Shown here: positions 8,731 through 33,237 of the stretch, piece after piece | Numbering within the stretch: position 1 is the stretch's first letter | How the letters are laid out: each line of letters starts with the position of its first letter | DNA from: a virus | IMG/VR virus record: IMGVR_UViG_3300037963_004562 | Location: 1-33,237 of that record | Reading direction: 5' to 3' (one strand) | DNA: 33,237 bases | The notes under the pieces: generated by a model | Databases searched by the model: none | What the model was told of the DNA's origin: nothing | Seen by the model: the letters and a program-made list of their open reading frames with translations, nothing else | Program-made: the position numbers and the translations under genes

Positions 8731-9651
8731 CTATAGCTCAGTCACTTTGCTCGGAGTAATGCCCATCCGTCGTTCATAAGCTCGAACTTGGGCTGGGGTT
8801 GGTGTGCCAATGCCGCATCGGCAGTTTGCAACGTGCTTGATAGGAGCGGTGGGGTCACCCGGAAACATCATTTTAGTTCCATCGGGTAGCTCAAACGGTT
8901 CATCGACTGGGGCAATCACGCCTCGCATCTCTTGGTGCCCCCTGCCGCCGTCGCTTCTCTCTGGCATCCACACCTTGTACTTTCGGCCAGTCGCCTTCAG
9001 GGCTTCAAAGTTTCCTCGGTTTTGTGCTTTGCCCATCTCAGTTCGTGCAATCAAAGAGGCTCTTGAAAAAACGTCCCTTGTAATCCTTGGGCCTCTCTCC
9101 AGCGGCTCAAGAATTCCTCTGCTTGGTTTTTGGTTCGGTGCCAAAACCTCAGCGCCATCAGCATAGAATGAAAACCGTATTCTTCTAGCAAGCTCGGCTT
9201 GCGTGATGCCTGGGTCTTCACTTAGCCACTGAGCCAAGAACTCTCTCATCTTGCTTTTGAACTCTTCATCCACATTGGCGAGAAGAGCGGTGGCTTCATT
9301 TTTCTTCTCATTGAAATATTGTTGAAAAAAGCTCGGAGCGACCGTGAACTTGGGATCTGTTTTTTTGCCAGCGTCTTCAATTTCCCTGATGCCTGAGATC
9401 GTTAAAAGCTGAGCCAACTGCTCGATGAACCTTTCGCGGTCGGCAGCGCCTTTTTGAACCAGGCCCTTCGTCCGCTTAATCTCTTCATCCACAAGGATCT
9501 TGTAGTACCTATCGAAGATAGCTTTGATTCTTGGAGCCAGTGCTTTGCTCCGCGCCTCCGCCTGCCGGGCCCCCGGGCCTCGACGTGTTCTTCCCACGGG
9601 TGCGAATCTACGTCGCGCTTTTGCTTTTCTTACTTCTCGCCTCATAGCCAT
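8731..9651 (-). CDS. Minor head protein, Mu F/SPP1 gp7-like
   Basis: A 306-residue protein. The C-terminal half (about 195-285) has the family signature: SLIARTEMGKAQNRGNFEA, then KVWMPERSDGGRGHQEMRG, an LPDGTKMMFPGD stretch and a closing HVANCRCG. That last motif is the usual H-x-NCRC end of the Mu F-like domain. The N-terminus is very Arg/Lys-rich and may bind DNA or RNA. Family members attach near the portal and help head assembly. ATG 9645 would give a 4-base overlap with the terminase stop and is an equally plausible start. Confidence 0.8.
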   Translation of the reverse strand: MAMRREVRKAKARRRFAPVGRTRRGPGARQAEARSKALAPRIKAIFDRYYKILVDEEIKRTKGLVQKGAADRERFIEQLAQLLTISGIREIEDAGKKTDPKFTVAPSFFQQYFNEKKNEATALLANVDEEFKSKMREFLAQWLSEDPGITQAELARRIRFSFYADGAEVLAPNQKPSRGILEPLERGPRITRDVFSRASLIARTEMGKAQNRGNFEALKATGRKYKVWMPERSDGGRGHQEMRGVIAPVDEPFELPDGTKMMFPGDPTAPIKHVANCRCGIGTPTPAQVRAYERRMGITPSKVTEL

Positions 9652-10976
9652 GCACTCGCGACAAACCCGTCATCCGGGTTGATTGAGATATCGAAGCTCG
9701 GCAGCGTGTCTAGCTCGGTGCATGCCCATACAAATGCGTCGAGCCGGTCCGGTGATTTTTTACTCAGCCCTGGGACGTAGTTTGTAAGTTGGTCTTCCAA
9801 CTCTGGCCAAATACCAACGAAATGTATGCGGCCTTGTTCCGTCCTGCTGGCGATGGGCTCGGCCCTGGCGTGCTTGCCCCGACTCGCGTGAACTAGCTTC
9901 ACAGCCGCGTTTCTGTCGAGCTGAGCGGTAATGCTGCGCCAAGTCTCGCCGCCTTGGTTTGACTCAAAGACAACGCAGTCGGCTTGGTGAAACCGATAAG
10001 CCTCTAAGGCTCGCCTACACACCGCATCGGGGGTGCCGCGCATGCTGATATCATCAAGAACAAACATATGCCCACCATCGCCCATACCTGCGACAATAAT
10101 ACCAGACTCGTCTGCCTCGTCTGAACTAGTCACGGCTGGGTCTACCGCCACGACAATACGTCGCAAGTTCGGTGCTTCCTTTACTCTATGCTTATCAATA
10201 TCGGTGCGCATAAAAAGCGCACCAGGCAGCTGACTCAAAAGCTCTCCATCAAGCTCCTGTCTTCCCAGCGTGCTGCCTTTGTATCTATCGTGAATAGCGC
10301 GAATAAAGTCTCTGCTTAGGTTTTGAGCGTTGTCCATCGTGGCGCCGCGGGTCACGTGGGTTCGGGGGTCCTCGGCTAATCGCTTTAGTCTTACCAGCGG
10401 CCTGGGTGTTGTAGTGACGACGCATCTAGGATTGTCTCCAAGCCTCAAACCAAACTGAAGCTGATCCCAGGTATCCCACCGCCTCCATGCCGCCAACTCG
10501 TCGGCCCAACATATATGGTGTTGAGGCCCTCGAAGCTGGTCGGGCTTGTCCGCAGAATACGTGGTCGCTATGCTGCCGTTTGACCAAGTGACGCGTCTCT
10601 TACTTGGCTCATACTCTGCCCGGTCGGCGCCACCGCACGCCAATATTCCAGACTCGCCTTCCACCATGACGTCCCTCGCGTCAGCGGCACTTCTCGCCAC
10701 GAGGGCAATCCTGATGCCGGGATTCGTCATCGCCATCGCGTGAACCCACTCGCTTCCGCATCTTGATTTGCCCCAGCCCCGTCCTGACATAATCAACCAG
10801 GTCTTCCAGTCTCCGTCTGGGGGCAGCTGCTCAGGCCTGGCTGTAAAGAGCCAGTCTTTCTCCAACGCCTCTAATTCGTCGGCGTCCAGTGACTCAAGAA
10901 ACGTCCTCCGACTTTTCTCGGGCAGCGAGATCAGCCAGTTTGTCCAAGAGCCTCTCGCGGGCATCTTCGATTTCAT
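9642..10976 (-). CDS. terL: Terminase large subunit
   Basis: A 444-residue packaging motor with both expected domains. ATPase: Walker A at 63-72 (SGRGWGKS core), Walker B HICWADE at 154-160, and coupling motif TTTP at 188-191. Nuclease: Asp279 in VVAVDPAV, Glu338 in VVFESN and Asp413 in SPDRLDAF, the three acidic metal ligands of the RNase H-like fold. It cuts concatemers and pumps DNA into the prohead. The start lies 83 bases inside the small terminase gene, preceded by a G-run (GGAGGGGGG). The family resembles Terminase_6 proteins. Confidence 0.93.
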   Translation of the reverse strand: MKSKMPARGSWTNWLISLPEKSRRTFLESLDADELEALEKDWLFTARPEQLPPDGDWKTWLIMSGRGWGKSRCGSEWVHAMAMTNPGIRIALVARSAADARDVMVEGESGILACGGADRAEYEPSKRRVTWSNGSIATTYSADKPDQLRGPQHHICWADELAAWRRWDTWDQLQFGLRLGDNPRCVVTTTPRPLVRLKRLAEDPRTHVTRGATMDNAQNLSRDFIRAIHDRYKGSTLGRQELDGELLSQLPGALFMRTDIDKHRVKEAPNLRRIVVAVDPAVTSSDEADESGIIVAGMGDGGHMFVLDDISMRGTPDAVCRRALEAYRFHQADCVVFESNQGGETWRSITAQLDRNAAVKLVHASRGKHARAEPIASRTEQGRIHFVGIWPELEDQLTNYVPGLSKKSPDRLDAFVWACTELDTLPSFDISINPDDGFVASAWL

Positions 10977-11373
10977 GTTTTATCGGTCCCCCCTCCGGGC
11001 CTGATATTTCTTGTTGTACCTTGAGCGTCATTCCCCTGCGTCGCTCCAGCTTCCAAGCTGCCGCTTGCCAAGTGCCTGACATGGCTGCCTTTTCAACCAT
11101 GGCTAGCCACCGGTTTGTAGCCTCGCCTTCTACCTCTTTTATGCGCTCCAAAAACTCCAAAAAACGCTTACTCGCCTCTAGTCTGGGATTGTCCTTTGCT
11201 CGGCTTTTCTCCTCGTAAAACCACGCTTCGCTGAAGCCAGCGCATCCGCATGCGTCTTTGATTGGGCAGCCGAGACGGATAGCCTTGAGAAACTTATCCT
11301 TTGCCTCGTCCGTCAAAACCTTCCGCTTGCGACCGGGCTTTTTTCTCGGCTTGGCTTTTGACCTTTTAACCAT
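10894..11373 (-). CDS. terS: Terminase small subunit (probable)
   Basis: A 159-residue protein directly upstream of, and overlapping, the large terminase gene. The N-terminus is very basic (KRSKAKPRKKPGRKRK), followed by a helix-turn-helix-like region (AIRLGCPIKDACGCAGFSEA). A long helical middle (residues about 65-125, with RFLEFLERIKEVEGEATNRW) suits oligomerisation. It should recognise phage DNA and start packaging. The ATG overlaps the methyltransferase stop by 8 bases. Confidence 0.8.
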   Translation of the reverse strand: MVKRSKAKPRKKPGRKRKVLTDEAKDKFLKAIRLGCPIKDACGCAGFSEAWFYEEKSRAKDNPRLEASKRFLEFLERIKEVEGEATNRWLAMVEKAAMSGTWQAAAWKLERRRGMTLKVQQEISGPEGGPIKHEIEDARERLLDKLADLAAREKSEDVS

Positions 11374-12559
11374 TCACCAGCTCTGCAGTCTGCCCCGTGA
11401 AGTCTTCCCATCGTTTGATTACCACGTCACAGTATGCCGGCGACAATTCCATCCCATAGCATTTGCGGCCAGTCTGCTCTGCGGCAATGAAAGACGTGCC
11501 GCTGCCCAAAAAGGTATCCAGAACAACAGATTGAGGCGCCGAGCTGTTTTTAATTAAATAAGCAAACAACTCAACCGGCTTCATTGTTGGGTGCTCGCCG
11601 TTTCTATCAGGCCGGTCAAACTCTAAAATGGTTGTTTGCTTCCTGTCCGAGTACCATCCGTGAGCTGCTCCGGCTTTCCAGCCATACAAGCAAGGCTCGT
11701 GCTGCCAGTGGTAATCCTGCCGACCCATGACCATTTTCTGCTTTTTCCAAATTAAGCACTGCCTGACTGTCTGCTCTTGGTCCCTTATTGCAGCCCTGAA
11801 GTTGTAGCCCTCCGAGTCGGCGTGCCAAACGTAAAAAGATGCGCCGGGGGCCATGCTTTCGAAAGCCAATGAAAACGAATCATTTAGAAAGTTTCGAAAG
11901 GCCTCGTCCTTCATAGAGTCGTTTGCGACCTTCATCGCGTCTTTTGTTTTGCCTGTGTAATCGACGTTGTATGGAGGATCCGTCAACCATAGGCCCGCCT
12001 TCTCCCCGTCCATCAGAGCCTCAACGTCCTCGGCACAAGTCGAGTCCCCGCACATCAACCTGTGATTTCCAAGTCTCCAAATCTGCCCCACTTGAGTGCT
12101 TGGCTCTTTAGGTAGCTCGGGAACTTCGTCCGGATCTGTGTTGCCCTCAGTAAGCCCTGTCACCTCATCAACTAAGGCAGAAAGCTCTGCCTCAGAAAAA
12201 CCGGCAGCCTCCACCAGTGCTTCATCTTCAATCTGCAAAGCACTAAGTTGTTTAGCCAAGGCTTCATCGTCCCACTCGGCAAGCTCGGCGGTCCTGTTGT
12301 CCGCGATTGCATATGCTGTAGCCTCTGCCCCAGCGAGCTCCGTTCGGACAATGTTGATTGCATCCCAGCCAAGGGCCCTTGCCGCGGTAAGGGTTCCGTT
12401 TCCAGCAATAACAACTCCCTTTTCGTCCACGACAATAGGTTTTTGCTGTCCAAATCTTTTTAGACTGGCCTTGATTGCATCAAGGTTTTTCCCGTCGTGA
12501 GCACGAACGTTTGCGGGATCGCACGCTAAGTCTGAGATATTAATTCTTTGGGTTTCCAT
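11366..12559 (-). CDS. ParB-like/adenine-type DNA methyltransferase fusion
   Basis: A 397-residue two-domain protein. Residues 1-130 are a ParB/Srx-like domain (DPANVRAH near 14-21; VIAGNGTLTAARALGW at 50-65). Residues 155-390 are a beta-class methyltransferase: catalytic DPPY at 194-197, a target-recognition stretch, HPTMKP at 323-328 and the S-adenosylmethionine motif DTFLGSGT at 348-355. DPPY suggests N6-adenine methylation. Phages use such enzymes to modify their own DNA against restriction or to mark packaging sites. Its start overlaps the preceding gene (TAATG). The target sequence is unknown. Confidence 0.85.
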   Translation of the reverse strand: METQRINISDLACDPANVRAHDGKNLDAIKASLKRFGQQKPIVVDEKGVVIAGNGTLTAARALGWDAINIVRTELAGAEATAYAIADNRTAELAEWDDEALAKQLSALQIEDEALVEAAGFSEAELSALVDEVTGLTEGNTDPDEVPELPKEPSTQVGQIWRLGNHRLMCGDSTCAEDVEALMDGEKAGLWLTDPPYNVDYTGKTKDAMKVANDSMKDEAFRNFLNDSFSLAFESMAPGASFYVWHADSEGYNFRAAIRDQEQTVRQCLIWKKQKMVMGRQDYHWQHEPCLYGWKAGAAHGWYSDRKQTTILEFDRPDRNGEHPTMKPVELFAYLIKNSSAPQSVVLDTFLGSGTSFIAAEQTGRKCYGMELSPAYCDVVIKRWEDFTGQTAELVNG

Positions 12560-12923: not shown

Positions 12924-13100
12924 TTAGTTATCGTGCCGTGTGTCTTCAGGCATCAAAGTCAGAATAAGTTGAAGGTAATCTTCATACAGGGCCTCGTTGA
13001 TAGGCTCGCCAGTGGGTTCTTTGCATTCGGGGCAAAAAATGGTCCCGCGCCAAACGCACTCGCATCGCTCGCAATTTCTCAGTGTTTTGTCCTTGATCAT
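12924..13100 (-). CDS. Small zinc-ribbon protein
   Basis: A 58-residue protein starting at ATG 13100. The start is chosen for GGGGGTAT just upstream, the same motif used by several other genes here; an in-frame GTG at 13145 lacks one. CERC and CPEC pairs near residues 9-12 and 24-27 form a four-cysteine zinc ribbon. The C-terminal half (EALYEDYLQLILTLM) is a helix. It is the first gene after repeat array A and leads into the packaging genes, so it could be a regulator, but no family is recognised. Confidence 0.6.
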   Translation of the reverse strand: MIKDKTLRNCERCECVWRGTIFCPECKEPTGEPINEALYEDYLQLILTLMPEDTRHDN

Positions 13101-13157
13101 GGCATACCCCCGCAAAACTTTATCAATCACAAGACCCAAAGTCACATGGGTTTAATA

Positions 13158-13181
13158 GGCCCCAAAAAGGGGTCTATTTTA
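13158..13181 (-). promoter_or_regulatory. Possible activator-dependent late promoter next to array A
   Basis: Minus-strand TAAAAT (13176-13181) is one base from the -10 consensus. At 17-base spacing the -35 position falls on the first TGGCC unit of array A instead of a TTGACA-like box, as expected if a protein bound to the array recruits polymerase. A GGCCCC-A5-GGGGTC hairpin (13158-13174) lies just downstream. On the plus strand this hairpin is followed by TATTTT and could equally be a plus-strand terminator. Confidence 0.3.
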
Positions 13182-13199
13182 TCCATGCAATTTTTTCAC

Positions 13200-13557
13200 T
13201 GGCCGTCCCTGGCCGTCCCTGGCCGCCGCTGGCCTCCCCTGGCCATCGCTGGCCACCTCTGGCCGCCCCTGGACCTTAAAAAATTTTTTTCAAATATCTG
13301 TCAGAAAACATCGTTCAAAGCCGTCTTACATCTGGCCATCTCTGGCCGCCCCTGGCCATCTCTGGCCTGCCCTGGCCATCCCTGGCCGCGCCTGGCCATA
13401 ATAATTTTATCCATGACGCGTTGAGCCAAGAAATCACTGGACTCGTCTGGCCATCCCTGGCCGCCGCTGGCCATCGCTGGCCGCCTCTGGCCGGACCTGG
13501 CCACCTCTGGCCTTCAAGATTCTGGCCGCGCCTGGCCTCCCCTGGCCATTCCTGGCA
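13200..13557. repeat. TGGCC array A: 24 cores at 10-bp spacing in blocks of seven
   Basis: Exact TGGCC cores start at 13200 and then every 10 bases to 13260 (seven). Further cores start at 13333 to 13393 (seven), 13448 to 13508 (seven), and 13523, 13533 and 13543. Degenerate TGGAC or TGGCA units lie in register at 13270, 13438 and 13553. Bases between cores vary (loosely RYCNC) while the core is invariant. AT-rich spacers (13275-13332 and 13398-13447) separate the blocks. The core is always on the same strand and the same helical face. This looks like a multi-site protein-binding array. Confidence 0.9.
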
Positions 13558-13962
13558 AAAATAAAATGTGACTGCCTGCGTCAAACGTACATTTTACCGA
13601 TAAAACTTTCGTCCCTTTTGTCCAAGAGCTGGGCCAAAAGTTTGGCCTTGAGTTTATCTGTTATCCATTTGATTTATATATGTTTATTAATTCATTTCTT
13701 TTACTTCTGTCATCTGTCCGGGGGATACCCCCTTACTTAGCTCGCCAAACCTCTCGGCTTTTTCCAGCATCGCGCAGACTGGGAGGGGGTAGTCACCGTG
13801 CACAAGGGTAAAAATGATTCAAAGCTTTGAAAGTTAAAAGAAACTTCTGTCCGAACTTCTGTCCCGGCTCCGGACAAAAGTGCCACAAGTTTTAGATATT
13901 TGGTTTAATTCTAGGCCGAAGGCATCGGCTCTAAGAAATTATACCATGATAAGCGTTTCAGC

Positions 13963-14745
13963 TCAATCTTCGAGGTCTCCGACGAGGCAAGAGCATCCGC
14001 CCCATTCGAGAAGATTTAGCTGGGGGTCTTTCGCCACCACTCTCTTTCTGAACTCAGTTAACGGCAGCGGCTTGACGGTTCCGCCAGTCCTGTCTCGAAG
14101 GATTGCCACGTCTGCTTCAAGGTATTCACGAAGTTCTTTTTCCTTCGCCTCGTGGTGAGCATACCTATCCGGCATCACTCTAAGCAGGTGCTCAAATTGA
14201 CCTTGACCGCTTCGAACGCAAAACCCTCCACAATTATTGTGCGCAAAGCCCAGCTCATAGAGCCGCGGTATTCGGATCCCCTCTTCCTTCAGCTTCTCTT
14301 TAATCTGGCCGTAACTTACAAACGGCGGCTCGCACAGCGGGCTTACGACGGTGTAGGGCTGCCACCAGTTTGCTGCACGGTCGTGCCTGTGTGATTCCAT
14401 CCCATCAATACCCAGATACATCACGCACTCGTCGGGCTTGTATCTTTCTTCAATCCATTTTCGAATAAACTCTCTTTTCAATATCTTAGAGCAGTTTCCA
14501 ACTCGCGAGTTTCCTAAGAAGCGAGTGTCGAAAAAGACCTGCCAGGGTGTTCGTCCTTCAGCGATTCTTAAAAACTCGCCCCCAATGCTCTCGGCCCCCT
14601 CCTCCAAAAACCTGTAAAGGTCCTCGTCCTCGATAAGGGTATCGGCGAATAAAAGAATCAAATCATCGGTGCCGTGACGCTCCGCGACAATCTTCCCAGT
14701 CATCCACGAGCCAAGCCCGCCGCTGAACATAACTATGTGTTTCAT
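13963..14745 (-). CDS. PP-loop ATPase, phage PAPS-reductase-like family
   Basis: A 260-residue protein with the PP-loop motif SGGLGS (8-13) and FADT (33-36), typical of the adenine nucleotide alpha-hydrolase superfamily that includes PAPS reductase and DndC. Cysteines at 85, 172, 176, 251 and 253 (NCS, NCGGFC, GCSC) could bind an iron-sulfur cluster or carry sulfur. Phages often carry these proteins without sulfate metabolism, so a role in nucleic-acid modification is more likely than sulfate reduction, but this is inference. The ATG overlaps the primase-helicase stop as ATGA. No dnd partner genes are seen. Confidence 0.7.
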   Translation of the reverse strand: MKHIVMFSGGLGSWMTGKIVAERHGTDDLILLFADTLIEDEDLYRFLEEGAESIGGEFLRIAEGRTPWQVFFDTRFLGNSRVGNCSKILKREFIRKWIEERYKPDECVMYLGIDGMESHRHDRAANWWQPYTVVSPLCEPPFVSYGQIKEKLKEEGIRIPRLYELGFAHNNCGGFCVRSGQGQFEHLLRVMPDRYAHHEAKEKELREYLEADVAILRDRTGGTVKPLPLTEFRKRVVAKDPQLNLLEWGGCSCLVGDLED

Positions 14746-16940
14746 GCCTCTTCCTCCACGGCCACAAATGCGACTCGCTTTCTTCCTTTAGTTTGAATTT
14801 CAATCAGAGCAATTTCCCCCGCGTCCACCAGGGCCCGGACAACCTCTGCGTGCTCTTTCGGCTTAAGATTCCTAAACCTTCTTTTTATTTCTCTTTCCGT
14901 CATCCCTCTCTCGCCCGCGGCCAACACTGCTTCGAGTACAGCTTGACGCCTTGCGCCAAACTCGGAGCCTGTCATCTGCGTGCCCACGGCCTTGACCAGC
15001 CCGTTGAATGCGTGCCCGCTGTACGCAACGGCCCACTCCATCGCCTCCCGGTCTATCTTGGGCGATGTCTTAGAGCAGGCCACTATTGCGGACAGCCGCA
15101 TCGCGATTTCGACCGAGCGAGCCAAAAGGACATCCATGCCACTGTTCGCGAGCTTTCGGCGCCTCTTGACGGTCTCAGCCTCGAAGGCATCCAGCACCTC
15201 ATATGCCTCTGGGGCAAACTCTAGCTCCACTGTCTTCGGCGCCACATCGTGCACCTCGACGCCGGGCAAATTTCCTCTTCCGGCATCGCGCATCGATTGT
15301 GCCCACCGGACGACTCCCGCAGGAGGAGCTGCTTTGGTCTGGCCCCTCTTTCGAGCACCGCACTCCGCCGGAGAGTTGACGACAAGAAACCGTCCCAACA
15401 TACCGGCCTCGATATCAGCCTCCCCAATCGCGGAATAAAACTGCTTTGGGGTCGTCATCGAATACAAAGTAATCGCAGGCCTGGTTACCTTGAGCCTCTC
15501 AACGTCCCCGCGCTGCTTCTCTGTCAAACCCATCGAGCTATATGCCCGAGGCCTAAGTGTTCCATCTAGTCGCCCGAAGGCCTCGACTAGCGTCGTCACC
15601 GCTTCCTGCAATTGGCTGTTACCCGATGCGCTGCAGGCCTGCAGGTACTTTCCAAACTCGTCGATGACCGTAATATGCGTTGGCCTGTCTCGCAGCTCCG
15701 AATAGACTGCTCCAGGGCTCGTGTAACCGCTGCCCCCGATCAATTCATCAAGACCCGCGGCATCCAGAATCTTCTCCACCGCTTTCTTGCCATACTCTTT
15801 ACCGGTCCCACTTTTGGCGACGGTTAGAAAATAAAGGCTGGTGAAGTTTGACTCGGTCGTCACATACTTTCGGCCCAACACCACGCTTCCCAGCGCAAGG
15901 GCTGACTGTACTGCCATCTCTACGTGTGGCGCCGGTGCCGTTGTCATGTACCAGCGCACGAAGTCCCCCAAGACCCCAGGGATAGTGTGCAGCTTCGCCG
16001 GCAGCGCACTGATTACTGTTTTCGGCTTTTTTATACGAATAGGTTCAGCGGCAGGCTCGATGGGCTTGTCTTCGGGATGATTGCGTTGATGCGTTTTAAA
16101 AACAGAGGCCACCGTTTTATGGAGCTCCCTGCCATCAAGAGGCACCGGGTTAGCATCATTCCATTCTGCCACCTTCTTAAATGCCTTATTGAAGTCGTCG
16201 CCTTCGTGAATGAACTGGCCAACGAGGGAGGCCGCGGCGTTATTTCTCCCCTCGTTCTCTCCGACCGGGCTTCCGTCGTGAGGTATCTTGACATCCGACA
16301 CATCAAATATGTTTCTTGGAAGCTGGGCCTTAGCTGGAAAACCCGGCCCATTGGGCCCATTGGTCCCAATAGCTTTCATGAGTTCAAAGATTACATCCGG
16401 CGAGCGGTAAGCAAGGTCCTCGAACTCATCAATCCCATCAAAGACCACCAGGTCATATACCGCTCGCTCTACCCCATAACCTTTCAGCTTAAGGTCCTGA
16501 TCCGCAGTCCTCACGCTGCCCGGCGCCACCACGTAACTGCCTTTGTTACTATCGCCGCTCGGGCTGCAGAAGATATCAACTCCTCCCATAATTCTAGATG
16601 GAATCTTAGCGCCTGGGTCCGTTCTAAAATAAAGGTGCCGCCCCCTTGGCGTTTGGACTTCGAAATTACTGTGCCCCACGATGCCTCGAATCAAAGGCTC
16701 TTTTTCAGGCTTATCAATATCGACGACGACGAGCCCGCGGCCAGTCCGAATTCCTAAGTTAAATGCAGGCGCCTCGCCGTCAATTGTCTCTAGCTCTTCC
16801 GCCGAGACAGTGTTTCCGGTGCTGAATAGATTCCAGCCTTCCGTCTTGATTGCGTTTGTGCCTCGCTCGCCGCGCAGCAAGCGTCCATCAAATATTGCAG
16901 CCAGTTCGCACCACTGCGCTGCCGTGAAATTTGCCATCAT
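14742..16940 (-). CDS. PrimPol primase-helicase
   Basis: A 732-residue replication protein. The N-terminal domain (1-165) has archaeo-eukaryotic PrimPol motifs: VVVDID at 71-76, a RGRHLYFR histidine motif with His102, and VDIFCSP with Asp122. Residues about 228-290 resemble a PriCT linker domain. The C-terminal ATPase (about 315-560, DUF3987-like) has Walker A AKSGTGKE at 375-382, Walker B ITVIDEFGKY at 423-432 and LGRFLV near 515. It probably primes and unwinds DNA for a host polymerase, as no phage DNA polymerase is present. The start is preceded by GAGGGGGTAA. Confidence 0.85.
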   Translation of the reverse strand: MMANFTAAQWCELAAIFDGRLLRGERGTNAIKTEGWNLFSTGNTVSAEELETIDGEAPAFNLGIRTGRGLVVVDIDKPEKEPLIRGIVGHSNFEVQTPRGRHLYFRTDPGAKIPSRIMGGVDIFCSPSGDSNKGSYVVAPGSVRTADQDLKLKGYGVERAVYDLVVFDGIDEFEDLAYRSPDVIFELMKAIGTNGPNGPGFPAKAQLPRNIFDVSDVKIPHDGSPVGENEGRNNAAASLVGQFIHEGDDFNKAFKKVAEWNDANPVPLDGRELHKTVASVFKTHQRNHPEDKPIEPAAEPIRIKKPKTVISALPAKLHTIPGVLGDFVRWYMTTAPAPHVEMAVQSALALGSVVLGRKYVTTESNFTSLYFLTVAKSGTGKEYGKKAVEKILDAAGLDELIGGSGYTSPGAVYSELRDRPTHITVIDEFGKYLQACSASGNSQLQEAVTTLVEAFGRLDGTLRPRAYSSMGLTEKQRGDVERLKVTRPAITLYSMTTPKQFYSAIGEADIEAGMLGRFLVVNSPAECGARKRGQTKAAPPAGVVRWAQSMRDAGRGNLPGVEVHDVAPKTVELEFAPEAYEVLDAFEAETVKRRRKLANSGMDVLLARSVEIAMRLSAIVACSKTSPKIDREAMEWAVAYSGHAFNGLVKAVGTQMTGSEFGARRQAVLEAVLAAGERGMTEREIKRRFRNLKPKEHAEVVRALVDAGEIALIEIQTKGRKRVAFVAVEEEA

Positions 16941-16958
16941 TATTACCCCCTCTTTGAG

Positions 16959-17141
16959 TTATTTTCTCTGAGCCTCAAGTGCATCCAGACCCAGGACGAT
17001 AGCAAGACGCATCACGTCAGCGCGACCGGCGTCTCCACTCGGGAAACGTCTCACGTCTTTACTTAAGTCCACGGCCATCTTGTCCGCTCGCTCTAGAATT
17101 TCAGTGGAAATTTTAATTCCGTATACCGTACTTTCAGCCAT
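16959..17141 (-). CDS. Ribbon-helix-helix-like regulator
   Basis: A 60-residue protein. The layout is a strand (STVYGIKIS, residues 4-12), helix (TEILERADKMAVDLSK), loop with Gly/Asp, then helix (RADVMRLAIVLGLDALEA). It fits ribbon-helix-helix DNA-binding proteins, although the loop between the helices is longer than usual. It is the first gene of the leftward block, with GGAG at proper spacing, and faces the divergent promoter region with its palindrome. Autorepression is likely, and binding to the TGGCC arrays is a speculative alternative. Confidence 0.65.
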   Translation of the reverse strand: MAESTVYGIKISTEILERADKMAVDLSKDVRRFPSGDAGRADVMRLAIVLGLDALEAQRK

Positions 17142-17171
17142 AAAGGCTCCTTTTGTTTGTGTTTTGTTTGT

Positions 17172-17199
17172 TTTATCATGCTAAAACGTTTGACGTCAA
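17172..17199 (-). promoter_or_regulatory. Leftward promoter for the regulator and replication genes
   Basis: On the minus strand TTGACG (17194-17199), a 16-base spacer, then GATAAA (17172-17177). The -35 hexamer forms one half of the perfect palindrome TTGACGTCAA (17190-17199). It would drive the regulator gene beginning at 17141. Four of six -10 bases match consensus. Confidence 0.45.
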
Positions 17200-17221
17200 A
17201 TGCAATACATGAAACTATAAT
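17190..17221 (+). promoter_or_regulatory. Rightward early promoter with palindromic operator
   Basis: A perfect TATAAT lies at 17216-17221, 41 bases upstream of the first rightward gene. TTGACG at 17190-17195 is the nearest -35-like box but the spacer is 20 bases, longer than usual, so the promoter may need an activator or use a weak -35. The 10-bp palindrome TTGACGTCAA (17190-17199) covers both -35 boxes and is a likely operator. Confidence 0.5.
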
Positions 17222-17261
17222 GATGTCAGGCGGAGGCGCCGAACCGAACGAAGGAAAGAAG

Positions 17262-17456
17262 ATGCACTTAGACAAAGAAACACTCGCCAAGCTTAACGAA
17301 GCCAAGAAACTTGTTGGTCAAAAAGTCCGGTCCCGGGCTTACGAAGCTCCAAAGACAGTATCGGAAGTATTCATTGCAGACAAAGACGACTGCGGCTTGG
17401 TGATTTGCGTAGACTTCACCGACGGCACCTATAGCGATCTCGCCGATATCTACTAA
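17262..17456 (+). CDS. Small hypothetical protein, first rightward gene
   Basis: A 64-residue protein. The start ATG 17262 is chosen because AAGGAAAG precedes it, as in the next two genes. A longer reading frame from 17157 would overlap the promoter. The sequence has a basic helical N-terminus (MHLDKETLAKLNEAKKLVG) and a strand-rich C-terminus (VFIADKDDCGLVICVDFTDG). No family is recognised. Position suggests an early gene, often a host-takeover or anti-defence protein in phages, but nothing direct supports a function. Confidence 0.6.
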   Translation: MHLDKETLAKLNEAKKLVGQKVRSRAYEAPKTVSEVFIADKDDCGLVICVDFTDGTYSDLADIY

Positions 17457-17481
17457 GCCAGAGCCAAAGGAAAGAACGAAG

Positions 17482-17736
17482 ATGAAAGCATTTCTAAGAA
17501 ACCGGTATTCATTGCGCCACCTGCTCAAGAACATAAGTCCAGTTGAAGTTCGCTGCATCGCGCAGGGAGACAGCACTATCGCGCCTTGGTTGGTATCCAA
17601 GGTGTTCGGCGGCCTGACAGACACCCAGGCCGAAGCCCTCGCGATAGACCTTGAAACTGAAATCAGGACTTGGAACGCCGGCACAACAGACGAAGCCCGG
17701 GAGAGCCTCCGGGCTGTCCTGGGACTTATAAAGTAA
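17482..17736 (+). CDS. Hypothetical early protein
   Basis: An 84-residue protein with AAGGAAAGAACGAAG before the ATG, nearly the same leader as its neighbours. Mostly helical, with a basic N-terminus (RNRYSLRHLLKN) and an acidic second half (LAIDLETEIRTW). No catalytic motif or transmembrane span is visible, and I do not recognise the family. Confidence 0.6.
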   Translation: MKAFLRNRYSLRHLLKNISPVEVRCIAQGDSTIAPWLVSKVFGGLTDTQAEALAIDLETEIRTWNAGTTDEARESLRAVLGLIK

Positions 17737-17755
17737 ACAAAAGAAGGGAAGAACG

Positions 17756-18334
17756 ATGCAAAGGAACCAATCAATCAAATCTTGGCAAGACCTCAGTCAT
17801 AGCGACCGAGAGCAAATTGCCGAGGACCTTTTTGAGGACGAAGACTACCACGTCAAAGTTTTTCGATTCAAATATCAAGGTGCTTTTTACCAGACTCTGC
17901 ACGGCGTCGAATTAATTGTCGCCACACATCAGCGTTACCATAAGCCACTTAGAGCGATGCAACTGATCACCAAGTTAAGGGAGGAGGTTGAGGTTTGGAA
18001 GGCGCGAGCCAGAATCGCGGAAGACGAGCTGCAGGCAGAACGCATAGATCACCGTGAGGCAATGGCAGACCGACAACTCTTGCTCAATCAAATAGAGCAC
18101 GAGCGATACGAACGCCAGGCTGCACAGCGCACCATTTCGCGACTGGGCGGCGATTTCGAGACTGGCCCCGACAAGTATAGAATCGATTGGGCCTGCAACG
18201 ACGTGTACGAGTACCGGCCACATTCAGACGCATATTTTTTTATCGGCGATATTCGTGGGTATGGAATTACTCACGCCGACAGCAACGCACAAGCGATTGC
18301 TAAAATTGAACTTAAAAAACAAGGGGTATTATGA
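17756..18334 (+). CDS. Hypothetical protein with central coiled coil
   Basis: A 192-residue protein, with AAGGGAAG before the start. The N-terminal region (1-70) is mixed. Residues about 72-130 form a long charged helix with heptad-like spacing (LREEVEVWKARARIAEDELQ) that should be a coiled coil. The C-terminal 55 residues are a compact domain rich in Tyr and Asp. The stop overlaps the next start as ATGA. The function is unknown. Confidence 0.6.
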   Translation: MQRNQSIKSWQDLSHSDREQIAEDLFEDEDYHVKVFRFKYQGAFYQTLHGVELIVATHQRYHKPLRAMQLITKLREEVEVWKARARIAEDELQAERIDHREAMADRQLLLNQIEHERYERQAAQRTISRLGGDFETGPDKYRIDWACNDVYEYRPHSDAYFFIGDIRGYGITHADSNAQAIAKIELKKQGVL

Positions 18335-18687
18335 TGGGTAAAAAGAGGGCACCAAGGCGCTGCACGTACTGTGGGCAGCTGGGTCACGACAGGCGAAACT
18401 GTCCACACCTCCAAATCTTAAAAAAACTAGAACAGTCAGCGGAGGAGAAGCCCAAGGAGAAGACTTTTGAGGTAGTCGAAAACATTGTGGCGCTTTTAAA
18501 CGAGGCGATGAGCGATGTGGAATCTTCATCGATGAACGCTTATGGGCATCCGACTCTCAACGTAGACAATAACGGCGAGATTTTTGTGGAGGAGACCCCA
18601 GTCATAACAGGGCTGATGGCCTTGGGTGTGTGTCGTTTTTATCTAGCAAAAGCAAGAGGAGGCAACGATGGCTCTAATGGCGTATAA
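18331..18687 (+). CDS. CCHC zinc-knuckle protein
   Basis: A 118-residue protein. Residues 11-24 read CTYCGQLGHDRRNC, an exact C-x2-C-x4-H-x4-C zinc knuckle preceded by a basic patch (KKRAPRR), the arrangement used by retroviral and eukaryotic nucleocapsid-type RNA or ssDNA binders. The rest is acidic and helical, with no known domain. AGGGGTATT precedes the ATGATG start. A nucleic-acid binding role during early infection is inferred. Residues after about 80 overlap the next gene at the DNA level. Confidence 0.65.
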   Translation: MMGKKRAPRRCTYCGQLGHDRRNCPHLQILKKLEQSAEEKPKEKTFEVVENIVALLNEAMSDVESSSMNAYGHPTLNVDNNGEIFVEETPVITGLMALGVCRFYLAKARGGNDGSNGV

Positions 18688-18859
18688 GATGCGACGCTCT
18701 CGCGGCAAGGTCGAGGTTTTTCACATAGTACACGGCTGGGTAGAGGCGCTGAGCATCAAGCCCGATGTAGTTAAGATTAAGCGCTACGATGCAAACGACG
18801 GTGGCTTTGTAGTTCACAATGAATCTCACGACAAATTCAGACTGACCGGCGAGGCTTGA
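18668..18859 (+). CDS. Small basic hypothetical protein
   Basis: A 63-residue protein. The ATG has GAGGAGG seven to nine bases upstream and overlaps the end of the zinc-knuckle gene by 20 bases in another frame. The sequence alternates strands (KVEVFHIVHGWVEALSI, then GGFVVHNESHDKFRL), suggesting a small beta fold. The function is not recognised. A terminator-like hairpin follows at 18882. Confidence 0.55.
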   Translation: MALMAYKMRRSRGKVEVFHIVHGWVEALSIKPDVVKIKRYDANDGGFVVHNESHDKFRLTGEA

Positions 18860-18881
18860 ACCCTTCGGCTTAACTGGTCAG

Positions 18882-18917
18882 GCCCCGGTCAGTCGCGCAA
18901 ACTGGCCGGGGCATTTT
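18882..18917 (+). terminator. Intrinsic terminator or attenuator within the rightward block
   Basis: GCCCCGGTCAGT (18882-18893) pairs with ACTGGCCGGGGC (18901-18912) over 12 positions with one G-T wobble and a 7-base loop. ATTTT follows. It separates the small early genes from the Sak4-SSB-nuclease module. No promoter is seen in the 20 bases before the next gene, so partial read-through (attenuation) is more likely than a full stop. Confidence 0.75.
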
Positions 18918-18936
18918 AACTGCGCAAGGAAACTTT

Positions 18937-19611
18937 ATGAAGATAACTAGAACCAACGATTTGCTTCGGCATTTCCTAAAGATGACAGTTTACTCGGGCA
19001 GCGGTGGCGGTAAGACAAGACTTGCTGCAACGACCGGTGGACCCACGGTGGTGATCAGTGCTGAGGGAGGCCTGCTTTCACTTCGGGACCATGACCTGAT
19101 TGCGATAGAGGTAAAAAGCATCGCAGACATGCAAGAGGCCTACAAGTGGCTGGTCAACTCAGATGAAGCCGCGGGAATAGAATGGGTTTGCATAGATTCT
19201 ATTTCTGAGATTGCAGAGGTTTCTCTGGCTCATCACAAAGAAGAAAATAAGCACGGCCCAAGAGCTTATGGCCAGATGGCTGACACGATGACCTCTATCA
19301 TTCGGGCGTTTCGAGACTTGCCTGAGAAACACGTTTATATGACTGCCAAACAAGAGAGGCTGCAACTCGATGACGGTTCGATGGTCTACGGCCCAAGCAT
19401 GCCAGGCAAGAACTTGACTCAGCAACTACCCTATTTCTTTGACGAGGTATTTGCTCTTCGCGTCCACACCGATGAAGAGGGCAACGTTCAGAGATGGCTT
19501 CAAACCGGAGCGAATGGAACGCACACCGCTAAAGACAGAAGCGGTGCGCTTGATCTTTTTGAACCATGCGACCTGTCGCATATTAAAACTAAAATTCTAG
19601 GAGAAAAATGA
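18937..19611 (+). CDS. Sak4-like RecA-fold recombination ATPase
   Basis: A 224-residue protein with a single P-loop ATPase core. Walker A is GSGGGKT at 21-27 and Walker B is VCIDS at 84-88, followed by a KHVYMTAKQER strand region. The length and the pairing with an ssDNA-binding protein gene directly downstream match phage Sak4 proteins (annotated AAA_24 or 'nucleotide-binding protein'). These promote single-strand annealing with the partner SSB. AAGGAAAC precedes the start. Confidence 0.75.
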   Translation: MKITRTNDLLRHFLKMTVYSGSGGGKTRLAATTGGPTVVISAEGGLLSLRDHDLIAIEVKSIADMQEAYKWLVNSDEAAGIEWVCIDSISEIAEVSLAHHKEENKHGPRAYGQMADTMTSIIRAFRDLPEKHVYMTAKQERLQLDDGSMVYGPSMPGKNLTQQLPYFFDEVFALRVHTDEEGNVQRWLQTGANGTHTAKDRSGALDLFEPCDLSHIKTKILGEK

Positions 19612-19612
19612 A

Positions 19613-20185
19613 ATGGCAAACTTATCACACATTGACATGTCTAACGTTGAGATTGGACCGGATGCAGGCTCGGGCTATGATCTTCTGCCCGAGGGCAAGT
19701 ACCTGGCTAAGGTGATTGACTCTAAGCTAGTGCCAACCAAGGGGATGTATCAGCCAGTTGACAAAAATGGGAAGGCGAAAGGCAAGCCTGTGCCAAAGGG
19801 CTACCTTCTTGAGCTGACTTGGCAGATTCAAAGCGGTCCACACGAGCGGCGCCTCATATGGGACAAAATTACTTTGATTCATACGAGCGATGACGCTCAA
19901 AGAATTGGAAGAGAGACCTGGAGAAAGGCCGTTCGAGCCGCCGGGCTTGGCGCGGCGCCTCAAGACTCTAGCGAGATTCACCAAAGGCCAGTCGTGATTC
20001 TGGTTAAAACTAAGCCTGCAAGTAACGGATACGAAGCAGCAAATTCCATTAAGTCTTATTACCCAGCTCCGGCTCAACAGGGTGTTATGAACCAACCAAT
20101 GCAGGCAAACGCACCGATTGCGGGCGAGCCTCAAGCAGCTCCACCATGGGGCGGGAAAACAGCTCAGGGCGACGTCCCATTCTGA
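19613..20185 (+). CDS. ssDNA-binding protein, DUF669-like
   Basis: A 190-residue protein. The N-terminus (GYDLLPEGKYLAKVIDSKLV, residues 21-40) followed by an ELTWQIQSGPHERRLIWDKI stretch fits DUF669-type OB-fold proteins of phages. The C-terminal 40 residues are Pro/Ala/Gln-rich and end in GDVPF, very similar to the C-terminal tip by which bacterial SSBs recruit partner proteins. It is one base downstream of the Sak4-like gene, supporting a shared recombination or replication role. Confidence 0.75.
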   Translation: MANLSHIDMSNVEIGPDAGSGYDLLPEGKYLAKVIDSKLVPTKGMYQPVDKNGKAKGKPVPKGYLLELTWQIQSGPHERRLIWDKITLIHTSDDAQRIGRETWRKAVRAAGLGAAPQDSSEIHQRPVVILVKTKPASNGYEAANSIKSYYPAPAQQGVMNQPMQANAPIAGEPQAAPPWGGKTAQGDVPF

Positions 20186-20199
20186 AAACTATCTAGGAG

Positions 20200-20226
20200 C
20201 CGGTGGGTGTGATTCGCACCCACCGG
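20200..20226 (+). promoter_or_regulatory. Hairpin next to a ribosome-binding site
   Basis: CCGGTGGGTG (20200-20209) and CACCCACCGG (20217-20226) form a perfect 10-bp stem with loop TGATTCG. The G-rich ribosome-binding motif GGGGGTAT follows within a few bases, then ATGATG. There is no T run, so this is not a typical terminator. It may bind a protein or limit translation of the nuclease gene. Confidence 0.55.
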
Positions 20227-20236
20227 CCGGGGGTAT

Positions 20237-21112
20237 ATGATGGCGAAACTTCCGAAGATGCAGCCGCCAACCATAGCTGAGATCTATCACCAAATTCATC
20301 GAGCCGCTAGCCCGTGGCAGCGTGACCATTTGGGCTGTTCTGGTTTAGGCGACGACTGTGAAAGAAAGATTTGGTACAGCTGGCGATGGTGGCGTCCGCC
20401 TGAATTTGACGGCAGAATCTTGCGTCTCTTCCGTCGCGGCGAGATTGAAGAAACCTGGCTTATCTCAGACTTACGTTCGGCGGGTGTCCAAGTAAGCGAG
20501 GGGCCAGACTTAGGACGGCAGTGGCGCACCAGCGCCTTAGGTGGCCACCTGGGAGGCTCAATGGACGCGGCCCTATTGGGCTTGAAAGAGGCTCCTAAAA
20601 CTTGGCACTGCGCCGAGTTCAAAACTCATAACAAAAAGTCGTTTGACGACCTTGAAAAGAAGCGAGTCAGAAAATCAAAGCCCATGCACTATGCACAGAT
20701 GCAGCTTTACTGTCATTTGTTTGGACTGAGCCGATGGGCCTACTTTGCTGTCTGCAAAGACGACGATCGAATTTATTACGAGAGAGGAGAATATGACAGA
20801 TACTACGCAGGGGAGCTGGTTGAAAAAGCTCGAAGAATCATAGAAGCGTCAGAGCCTCCGGCTAAAATTTCAGAGCGAGAGGACTATTATCAGTGTCGTT
20901 GGTGTCATCACCGCGAGGCATGCCAGCAAGAAATAATTGGCCCTGTGAAGACCTGTCGAAGCTGCAAGCACGGCAGGCCAATAATTGAGAGCCAAGGGGG
21001 AACTTGGGTTTGTCGCTTAAGTGGCGACCCACTCAGTGGGGAGGAGCAGCGGAAGGGCTGCGCCAAATATAACCAGATTGGGAGCCAGGCGCTTCCTGTC
21101 TTTGGGGGATAG
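20237..21112 (+). CDS. Cas4-like PD-(D/E)XK nuclease with Fe-S cysteines and zinc ribbon
   Basis: A 291-residue protein. The nuclease core has Asp110 (GGSMDAALLG), Glu127-x-Lys129 (CAEFKTH) and Gln154 (YAQMQLYC), the RecB/Cas4 catalytic set. Cysteines 34 and 41 before it and 220, 223 and 229 after it (CRWC, EAC) match the split iron-sulfur cluster of Cas4/AddB. A separate C-terminal part has Cys240, 243, 259 and 275, suggesting a zinc ribbon. It may make the single strands used by the Sak4/SSB pair. There are no CRISPR genes. GGGGGTAT precedes the ATGATG start. Confidence 0.75.
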   Translation: MMAKLPKMQPPTIAEIYHQIHRAASPWQRDHLGCSGLGDDCERKIWYSWRWWRPPEFDGRILRLFRRGEIEETWLISDLRSAGVQVSEGPDLGRQWRTSALGGHLGGSMDAALLGLKEAPKTWHCAEFKTHNKKSFDDLEKKRVRKSKPMHYAQMQLYCHLFGLSRWAYFAVCKDDDRIYYERGEYDRYYAGELVEKARRIIEASEPPAKISEREDYYQCRWCHHREACQQEIIGPVKTCRSCKHGRPIIESQGGTWVCRLSGDPLSGEEQRKGCAKYNQIGSQALPVFGG

Positions 21113-21113
21113 A

Positions 21114-21287
21114 ATGGAAATTTTTATTTATACCGTGGGCATCATAGGCACCGTCTTATGTGCTTTTGCGGTCTGGGAGCGTCGACAGAATCGAGCAATG
21201 CTTGATCGCCTGCGTTCGGAGGTTCTTAATCACCAGCGCAAGAATGCGATGCACGAATACCACGAGCCAGGAAGCTGGCGGCGGTGA
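21114..21287 (+). CDS. Small single-span membrane protein
   Basis: A 57-residue protein starting at ATG 21114, preceded by GGGGGAT; a longer frame from 21021 lies inside the nuclease gene. Residues 3-20 (IFIYTVGIIGTVLCAFAV) form one membrane span. A basic segment (ERRQNRAMLDRLR) follows, so the C-terminus is probably cytoplasmic. The stop overlaps the next start as TGATG. The function is unknown. Confidence 0.6.
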   Translation: MEIFIYTVGIIGTVLCAFAVWERRQNRAMLDRLRSEVLNHQRKNAMHEYHEPGSWRR

Positions 21288-21481
21288 TGTTAAAAAAAAC
21301 ATCTTACTGTCAGGGATGTATTCGCACCGATGTAACTTTGAAATTAACAAAGGCTGATGGGAAACCATACTGGCTTTGTGAAAAGTGTTTGAATCCTCTT
21401 CCTCGCAAGGCTTACGAGTTAGGTCGGGCCAATAGTCGAAAAAACTGGTCCGGCGAGGAAGAGAAAGAAAAGGCCAAGTAA
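21287..21481 (+). CDS. Small zinc-ribbon protein
   Basis: A 64-residue protein from ATG 21287 (TGATG overlap with the upstream stop). Cysteine pairs CQGC (near 8-11) and CEKC (near 31-34) define a four-cysteine zinc-binding fold. The C-terminus is highly charged (SRKNWSGEEEKEKAK). It is similar in design, but not in sequence, to the other small zinc ribbon at 12924-13100. The function is not recognised. Confidence 0.6.
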   Translation: MLKKTSYCQGCIRTDVTLKLTKADGKPYWLCEKCLNPLPRKAYELGRANSRKNWSGEEEKEKAK

Positions 21482-21502
21482 GGCCAAAAAAATAAGGGGT
21501 AT

Positions 21503-21739
21503 ATGATGAGAGATATTGGAGAGCGGCGCCTCGGTGCGCCTAAGCAAGAGAAGATTGATGATCTTTGGTGGTTTAAAGGACTGCTGTTTGTTGCCGCTGT
21601 CGCGATGACCGTCGCGCACTTTGGGCTTCAAAGGAGCTTCGCCCTCGAACGGGCTGCGGTCGGTGACCGGCATGAGCTTGAACAGATCAGTGAAGAGGAC
21701 CGCGCCGGACTGGCCGCCATAATTGCGGGAGCTGAGTGA
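21503..21739 (+). CDS. Small single-span membrane protein
   Basis: A 78-residue protein with AAGGGGTAT directly before the ATGATG start. Residues about 25-43 (FKGLLFVAAVAMTVAHFGL) form one membrane span. The C-terminal 30 residues are acidic and helical. It could be involved in superinfection exclusion or lysis control, but there is no specific evidence. Its stop overlaps the next ATG (TGATG). Confidence 0.6.
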   Translation: MMRDIGERRLGAPKQEKIDDLWWFKGLLFVAAVAMTVAHFGLQRSFALERAAVGDRHELEQISEEDRAGLAAIIAGAE

Positions 21740-22041
21740 TGGGTAAAAACAAGGAATCAAAAGAACAAATAGACCTTCAAAACATCCAAAACCTTATGCA
21801 GGTCATCGAGCAGGCCTGCAACAACTCCGCCGCCCTTGGATCTGAGTTTGTTGGGCGTAGTTGGTGCATCGACAACGAAGATTATGGTAAGGTGGCGGAA
21901 ATTTACAGGGAGTCGGTGGACACTTTGCGAGCAGCTTTCCGCGGGCTCAGTGTCGCCGAAGAGATACTAGAGCGATCGGCAGCAAGCCAGGCGCCAGCTC
22001 GGCGTCCCGGGGTAGTTCGTCGCTTGCTTTTGATGGGGTAA
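21739..22041 (+). CDS. Hypothetical helical protein
   Basis: A 100-residue protein from ATG 21739, translationally coupled to the gene before it (TGATG). It is predicted mainly helical, with an amphipathic middle (NIQNLMQVIEQACNNSAALG) and a basic C-terminus (RRPGVVRRLLLMG). No family is recognised. Confidence 0.55.
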   Translation: MGKNKESKEQIDLQNIQNLMQVIEQACNNSAALGSEFVGRSWCIDNEDYGKVAEIYRESVDTLRAAFRGLSVAEEILERSAASQAPARRPGVVRRLLLMG

Positions 22042-22044
22042 CAA

Positions 22045-22176
22045 ATGGGGAGTTTTATTGGCTGGATGCTTGGATTCTTTGGAGCCGTTGGCGTCGCGAT
22101 GTTGATCAGAGAGGGATATGAAAAGTATGCCCGGGAGAACTTGCGACGTAAGATAGAGGCGGCCTATAAAGAGTGA
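22045..22176 (+). CDS. Very small single-span membrane protein
   Basis: A 43-residue protein, ATG 22045 to TGA 22176, with GGGGTAAC just upstream as in other genes here. It begins MGSFIGWMLGFFGAVGVAML, a membrane span, followed by a basic amphipathic tail (REGYEKYARENLRRK). It is the last gene of the rightward block, three bases after its neighbour. It is real by spacing, ribosome-binding motif and composition; the function is unknown. Confidence 0.55.
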   Translation: MGSFIGWMLGFFGAVGVAMLIREGYEKYARENLRRKIEAAYKE

Positions 22177-22181
22177 TTACC

Positions 22182-22264
22182 GGCCCCGCCCGCAAGAATG
22201 TGAAGTTTTGCGAATCCCTCAAACAGATTCAAGATTTTATAAACTTAGGGCGGGGCCATTTTTT
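22182..22264 (+). terminator. Long-loop intrinsic terminator at the end of the rightward block
   Basis: GGCCCCGCCC (22182-22191) and GGGCGGGGCC (22248-22257) are perfect 10-bp inverted repeats, followed by ATTTTTT (T run 22259-22264). The 56-base loop is far longer than usual but contains smaller stems (GAATC/GATTC and GCAA/TTGC). It begins six bases after the last rightward gene and ends just before array B. Confidence 0.65.
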
Positions 22265-22270
22265 CGAGAG

Positions 22271-22520
22271 ACTGGCCAAACCTGGCCAAACCTGGCCGAA
22301 CCTGGCCAAACCTGGCCAAACCTGGCCGAACCTGGCCAAACCTGGCCGAACCTGGCCGAACCTGGCCAAACCTGGCCGAACCTGGCCGAACCTGGCCAAA
22401 CCTGGCCGAACCTGGCCGAACCTGGCCGAACCTGGCCGAACCTGGCCAAACCTGGCCAAACCTGGCCGAACCTGGCCGAACCTGGCCGGACCTGGCCGGA
22501 CCTGGCCGGACCTGGCCGGA
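22271..22520. repeat. TGGCC array B: 25 perfect 10-bp units
   Basis: TGGCC starts at 22273 and recurs every 10 bases without a break to 22513. The units are CCTGGCC plus AAA (9), GAA (12) or GGA (4); the first unit begins AC instead of CC. The four GGA units are all at the right end and AAA units are enriched at the left, which suggests stepwise local duplication. Same core, strand and period as array A, but much more uniform. It lies between convergent transcription units, downstream of the endolysin gene. Confidence 0.95.
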
Positions 22521-22574
22521 CCCATCAAACGATTGCGCAAACGTATCCGTTGCAAATGAAGTATTGAGCAAGAC

Positions 22575-33001: not shown

Positions 33002-33237
33002 CTTGGTTTCCTTGATTAAGTTTTTATTTAGCCTTGATTCCAGGCAATTCTAAATTCATCCCCACCGCTGCTCGATGCCAGACCAGTGAAGGGGATGCTC
33101 AAGACCGCCTCCTCTGCCTCAGGTATCTCAATCGCGGCGAAGTCTAGCTCTGCCGTCGGCACGTATATCGCCACGATTTTTCCTGCTGTTGTTCCAAGGT
33201 TCACCTGGATAGGCACGGAGCTAAAAGTTGGACTGGC
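32887..33237. repeat. Terminal redundancy, right copy
   Basis: Second copy of the 351-base terminal overlap at 2-352, with 348 of 351 identical positions by eye. It shows that the gene order continues from the tail chaperone across the window end into the tail tube protein. The split copies at either edge are therefore not extra genes. Confidence 0.9.
33028..33237 (-). CDS. Tail tube protein, 3' fragment (duplicate of the left-end gene)
   Basis: The last 70 codons of the gene that is complete at 143-1324, repeated by the terminal overlap. It is open at the window edge. The encoded residues are identical despite three nucleotide differences, all at third codon positions. Not an additional gene. 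Confidence 0.85.
   Translation of the reverse strand, partial: ASPTFSSVPIQVNLGTTAGKIVAIYVPTAELDFAAIEIPEAEEAVLSIPFTGLASSSGGDEFRIAWNQG

Follow-up and report, generated by a model that had tools for sequence, protein, structure and literature searches.

Two intergenic arrays of the six-base unit CTGGCC, set at 10-bp intervals and in one orientation, were found in a phage genome of marine type. With little more than even confidence, they are read here as recently acquired binding rows for one cooperative protein that would recognize CTGGCC and act, at array A, on the origin or the late operon. The window (the whole stretch of DNA analysed) is the 33,237-base virus record IMGVR_UViG_3300037963_004562. 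Leftward genes run from about 16940 to the left end and then, by circular permutation, from the right end to 22575, and a rightward set occupies about 17157 to 22176. Since genes at the opposite ends of the window are neighbours in relatives, the record resembles a near-complete genome that is circularly permuted and opened within tail genes. A 62-residue ORF at the right end (33028-33216) is similar to the C-terminal portion of the left-end tail tube gene (143-1324), and both match the same stretch of the relative L056; a domain duplication or a junction effect is possible. Array A lies between a small Cys-rich ORF and an origin-like stretch, and array B at the meeting point of the two transcription directions. 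The features are listed below; the inverted repeats were read from the sequence.

10894-11373, - strand: terminase small subunit (TerS), considered as a binder of the arrays and rejected
11366-12559, - strand: ParB-N plus N4/N6 DNA methyltransferase, considered as a binder and rejected
12924-13103, - strand: small Cys-rich ORF left of A, zinc-ribbon-like by eye, conserved in relatives
13145-13187, no strand: inverted repeat directly left of A; the same hairpin is present in relatives
13199-13274, + strand: array A block 1, seven exact CTGGCC units at 10 bp, then a decayed CTGGAC at 13269
13332-13397, + strand: array A block 2, seven exact CTGGCC units at 10 bp
13437-13512, + strand: array A block 3, an in-phase decayed CTGGAC at 13437 and seven exact units from 13447
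13522-13557, + strand: array A block 4, three exact units and the edge unit CTGGCA, offset by 15 bp relative to block 3
13560-13950, no strand: probable replication origin, to the right of A, with a layout shared by relatives and iterons that are swapped among them
13963-14745, - strand: phosphoadenosine-phosphosulfate-reductase-like (PAPS-reductase) gene, the sole A-side gene not found in close relatives
14742-16940, - strand: primase-helicase (Prim-Pol/PriCT-1/DUF3987), candidate initiator
22182-22257, no strand: long inverted repeat GGCCCCGCCC...GGGCGGGGCC followed by a T-run, between convergent transcription units, conserved
22272-22522, + strand: array B, 25 units CTGGCC(R)(R)AC, every one at 10 bp

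Array anatomy and the conserved core

The counts of exact TGGCC cores given in the preliminary description, 24 in array A and 25 in array B (22273-22517), were reproduced exactly. Those of A are all on the + strand and are distributed as 7+7+7+3, at 13200-13264, 13333-13397, 13448-13512 and 13523-13547. The common orientation and near-constant spacing it had reported were also found, with 20 of the 23 intervals in A and all 24 in B measuring exactly 10 bp. The blocks of A are mutually out of phase, with 73, 55 and 15 bp from core to core between successive blocks, and decayed edge units keep A's phase (CTGGAC at 13269 and 13437, CTGGCA at 13552). The conserved unit comprises the six bases CTGGCC, which are present in 20/20 internal units of A and in 25/25 units of B.

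The proposal that the bound protein would line up along one face of the DNA needs a correction. The DNA helix repeat is approximately 10.5 bp, so a row bound at 10.0-bp spacing would wind slowly round the DNA and, over 25 units, would not keep strictly to one face.

The pair TGGCCN5TGGCC occurred 49 times, against 0.15 expected from dinucleotide shuffles. Among the 20 internal units of A, the six core columns showed no change at all, whereas columns 7-10 carried only 0.54-1.25 bits and 12 different spacers were counted. A neutral model of uniform mutation and unit turnover, matched for unit number and divergence, was run 1500 times; it produced at most three adjacent invariant columns, and none of the 1500 runs reached the six observed in A. 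This simulation is simple and the register was picked after the data had been seen, but the gap is large all the same. Because the neutral simulations never gave a fixed core together with free spacers, selection probably acts on the core of A, in the way expected of a binding site, and the earlier argument from fixed cores and varying spacers thus goes beyond the neutral expectation. Codon selection cannot hold the core, since 10 bp is not a multiple of three; a coding function for the arrays was rejected, the core being held in every frame, and the ORFs that span the arrays are by-products.

Array B varies in columns 7 and 8 only (A/G), and its units, of three types, are sorted along it. It is near-uniform, as recent amplification would leave an array and as had been proposed, and by itself it is almost without information on selection. 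A and B have core, phase and orientation in common, and their spacers are mostly different. B ends in four copies of CTGGCCGGAC, and one unit in block 3 of A has this very sequence; B may therefore have been seeded from A, and the sharing of CTGGCCGGAC means that the common core of A and B is not fully independent evidence.

Relatives without arrays and the origin-like region

Relatives were gathered by terminase and primase protein searches; their TerL is mostly 75-92% identical and their primase reaches 92% identity. Array A was absent from its readable site in L053, L054, L055, L056, L057, L058, L059, L061 and L069, so that it is missing from no fewer than nine close relatives (TerL 75-90% identical), and it was likewise absent from the readable site in L342 and in the more distant L073 and L076. 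Array B was absent from its readable site in L066, L067, L070 and L072. There, the M15 peptidase gene ends right next to the terminator-like inverted repeat, except that a small ORF intervenes in L067. Because relatives join the inverted repeat directly to the next gene, B reads as a clean insertion of about 260 bp, beginning 15 bp past the conserved inverted repeat at 22182-22257. This repeat carries a compensatory change in relatives, CCC/GGG to CTC/GAG (GCTCGC / GAGCGG).

Four of the relatives without array A could be read across both sites and had neither array and no substitute, and no compensating phased arrays of other cores were found in the relatives. These sites show largely the pattern that the preliminary description had named as evidence against its own proposal. 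We read the missing arrays as refuting a general, needed role in the phage group, and not binding as such. Since the closest relatives lack them, the arrays are best regarded as a recent, dispensable gain. The comparison also bears on how fast such arrays appear, since they are missing from relatives whose primase and terminase proteins are about 90% identical.

Several other differences were noted near the site of array A. The Cys-rich ORF (12924-13145 region), which had no Pfam match, stands beside a VRR-like gene in the window and beside the primase in L053-type relatives, and the origin region is inverted between the two. Three relatives carry an HTH_17 (excisionase-like) gene near the site and no array: L054 (locus 405-1443, between the primase and VRR homologues), L055 and L059; the protein of L054 matches PF12728. 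At the corresponding place in L056 (3105-3131) and L057 (50-74), three 9-bp TGGGCCGNT repeats lie beside the hairpin.

To the right of A, positions 13560-13950 form a probable iteron-type replication origin, containing AACGTACATTTT, an AT-rich stretch, direct and inverted iteron-like copies of (A)CTTYTGKCC, and GGGGGATACCCCC. TGKCC was found seven times in this region against 1.3 in shuffles (P about 5e-4). The repeats are CTTYTGTCC-like and irregularly spaced, at 7-12 bp. The layout, with direct and inverted iterons, an AT-rich stretch and a GGGGTACCCC-like palindrome, is conserved in L053, L054, L061, L069, L073 and L342. The iteron sequence, by contrast, is swapped among close relatives and does not track primase similarity: the origin repeats are TTCTGTCC in L069, TTCTAGCC in L342, ATTATGGG in L054 and L061, and TTTTCACAC in L073 and L076, and GGGGTACCCC often comes next. 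A link between the initiator and the TGGCC arrays through the TGKCC enrichment is possible but not strong.

Candidate binders and competing explanations

Neither the domain searches of the window nor the gene comparison with relatives showed a dedicated binding protein accompanying the arrays. No integrase (PF00589) was matched in the whole record, and no excisionase or directionality factor (PF12728, HTH_17), ParA, RHH or HTH_3 gene in the window. Nearly all of the window genes have homologues in array-less relatives, and the comparison with these relatives showed no new DNA-binding gene arriving with the arrays. The ParB-domain methyltransferase was discarded as a partner, as it is not enriched near TGGCC arrays relative to control loci, and so was the PAPS-reductase gene, whose relatives at 31 other phage loci show no TGGCC arrays. 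Because array-less relatives share nearly all of the window genes, the binder would be supplied by the host or else be a conserved phage protein that can do without arrays.

The occurrence of the form elsewhere was surveyed over 2.9 million viral contigs. A series of four TGGCC cores spaced by 10 bp was found in 44 contigs or stretches, which does not exceed the control scans of the same contigs (48 for the reversed core, 61 for an 11-bp period), so there is no general enrichment of TGGCC at 10 bp in viruses. The matches were mostly decamers of identical units, and the matches in bacterial genomes were likewise mostly identical-unit repeats, including 10-bp tandem units with CTGGCC. At least seven exact cores combined with a spacer diversity of at least 0.4, as in A, were found nowhere else across three viral scans. 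Among sequenced phages, B had no similar DNA and A had two short, insignificant matches; plasmid matches to A consisted of one partial match at 7e-4, the rest being weak. In another phage group, six ACCCC cores at exactly 12 bp with variable spacers (L333:7080, L334:7080, L336:6519) form a similar kind of pattern, with another core and period.

These figures bear on the runner-up, neutral minisatellite expansion, which we regard as less likely and which is most plausible for B. Under this explanation, a 10-bp unit captured beside a hairpin or terminator would have spread by slippage or unequal exchange, first as A and then as B from an A unit, with no protein involved. It is consistent with the self-complementary GGCC, which favours slippage, with the decamer arrays of identical units, built on many cores, that viral and bacterial genomes contain, with the counts of 44, 48 and 61 just given, and with the relatives that lack both arrays. 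The near-uniformity of B, the identity of its end units with one A unit, and the start of both arrays directly past a hairpin and T-run also fit. The fixed core and free spacers of A, however, were not produced by uniform mutation and turnover, and the scanned viral contigs contain no second array of its kind; changes spread evenly across the unit, as a neutral minisatellite would show, were not seen in A, and B is uninformative in this respect. An assembly artefact is scarcely credible: B (250 bp) exceeds common short-read lengths and its copy number may be off, but its flanks are conserved on either side, and A has a unique spacer order assembled within conserved flanks.

It is unlikely that the arrays are extra iterons of the phage's own initiator, probably the primase-helicase, serving as second and third cis elements that titrate or stimulate initiation, in the way that P4 alpha uses ori1 and crr and plasmid P1 uses incA. 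Array A does abut the origin-like region next to the primase-helicase gene, the TGKCC core enriched there is one base from TGGCC, and CTTCTGTCC iterons are common to the window and L069. Against this, we estimate that chance alone would match a six-base core to a repeat with one mismatch in about 1 case in 10; the origin repeats are irregular, and iteron type ignores primase similarity, L053 (91%) having other repeats and L069 (71%) the same ones; the arrays are absent where the primase is 89-92% identical, and relatives replicate with no arrays. A structural action, through phased GGCC curvature or through transcripts folding into chains of GGCC hairpins, is very unlikely. Compared with shuffles, folding was better on both strands (z from -1.7 to -3.2 in A and from -5.6 to -6.4 in B), as would be expected of any GGCC repeat, and Rfam gave no match. 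Pairing or bending of GGCC would leave unaccounted for the leading C and T of CTGGCC, which are as invariant as GGCC itself, and column 7, the would-be partner of T, varies freely in A. A role as pac or centromere sites, read by the terminase small subunit or by a Par system, is most improbable, although A lies about 1.8 kb upstream of terS and plasmid centromeres have short phased cores. TerS is about 87% identical in L055, L060 and L061, of which L055 and L061 are readable at site A and lack the array, and a centromere finds no ParA or RHH match.

The binding-row reading would work as follows. One sequence-specific protein would read CTGGCC and bind head to tail, each turn of the helix taking one subunit. 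Single sites would be weak, but cooperativity would be strong enough for a run of at least seven neighbouring sites to start a protein filament, which would bend or coat the DNA. Array A would set this filament against the left edge of the probable origin, upstream of the leftward late genes, and the likeliest effect there would be on origin or late-operon activity. Array B, probably a later copy seeded from an A-type unit and then amplified, would set it where the two converging transcription units end. Against binding stand the array-less close relatives, the missing integrase, HTH_17, ParA, RHH and HTH_3 matches, and the unphased blocks of A.

Comparison with known systems

An instructive parallel is provided by two related contigs, G001 and G002, which carry CTGKCC arrays at exactly 10 bp (L303:3203-3297 and 10261-10372; L306:3243-3337 and 9284-9395). 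Ten units lie between a YdaS-like gene and recT, and a second set, upstream of a tyrosine integrase, consists of five forward and four inverted units that surround a putative att-like core; in G002 an HTH_17 gene is nearby. When the two contigs are aligned, the cores are kept, bar G/T at one base, while spacers and flanks diverge, which speaks for binding, and these arrays are likely directionality-factor or integrase-arm sites. They resemble the window in the core (the same up to G/T at one base), the 10-bp phase, the free spacers and the presence of several arrays per genome. They differ in belonging to temperate phages with an integrase and an HTH_17 gene and in having one array set inverted, and their gene kinship with the window is limited to a distant methyltransferase.

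Origin and partition systems offer partial likenesses. P4 (ori1/crr) and plasmid P1 (incA) have direct repeats at the origin and at a second site, near a primase-helicase; the window likewise has repeats adjoining an origin-like region, a second locus and a primase-helicase nearby, but its array core is one base and its spacing also off its own iterons, and array-less relatives replicate. Plasmid centromeres (ParG/parH, ParR/parC) consist of tandem short fixed cores with variable spacers that are read by an oligomeric protein; their periods are different, and the window has no ParA-type or RHH gene. Decameric minisatellites of bacteria and viruses share tandem 10-bp units with CTGGCC, but their units are mostly identical, in contrast to the fixed core and diverse spacers of A.

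The preliminary description had stated that no standard phage element has this form, but directionality-factor sites (Apl/Cox/Xis) already share it, as do G001 and G002, and a new kind of phage element is not upheld; the nearest known counterpart is the one-turn operator row. Sites of directionality factors are direct repeats spaced by one turn of the helix and located at two places in a phage genome; for Apl of phage 186, seven lie between the early promoters and five more at att (PMC7498355). The Apl sites are direct repeats 10-11 bp apart that are bound cooperatively, three adjacent operators being needed, and the DNA is bent (PMC7498355). Phased one-turn arrays at two loci are thus a known phage device, because the Apl layout of phage 186 has that form.

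The arrays of 186 Apl, P2 Cox, lambda/Gifsy Xis and P4 Vis resemble those of the window in their short same-orientation repeats, one-turn spacing and two loci, so that the direct-repeat arrangement of such operators is present here. The window arrays may work like them. Binding in the directionality-factor systems is cooperative and head to tail. The window has 24 and 25 sites, strictly at 10 bp and with a rigid six-base core, against seven and five in 186, and its arrays are not at att. No tyrosine integrase, attP or att site, HTH_17 gene or other wHTH directionality-factor gene was detected in it. Filaments of RdfS, Cox and BldC are, like the Apl rows, precedents for the binding reading. A bolder version, which we consider unlikely, is that a non-integrating phage recently recruited a host filament-forming protein through two long, strictly phased CTGGCC arrays, the first set against its replication origin and the second where its transcription units meet, a DNA-organising element with no described counterpart at such length. 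If they are protein-binding, the arrays would offer ready DNA bait for a filament-forming protein, and they would represent unusually long, rigid versions of the one-site-per-turn operators of directionality factors, in a phage with no sign of integration.
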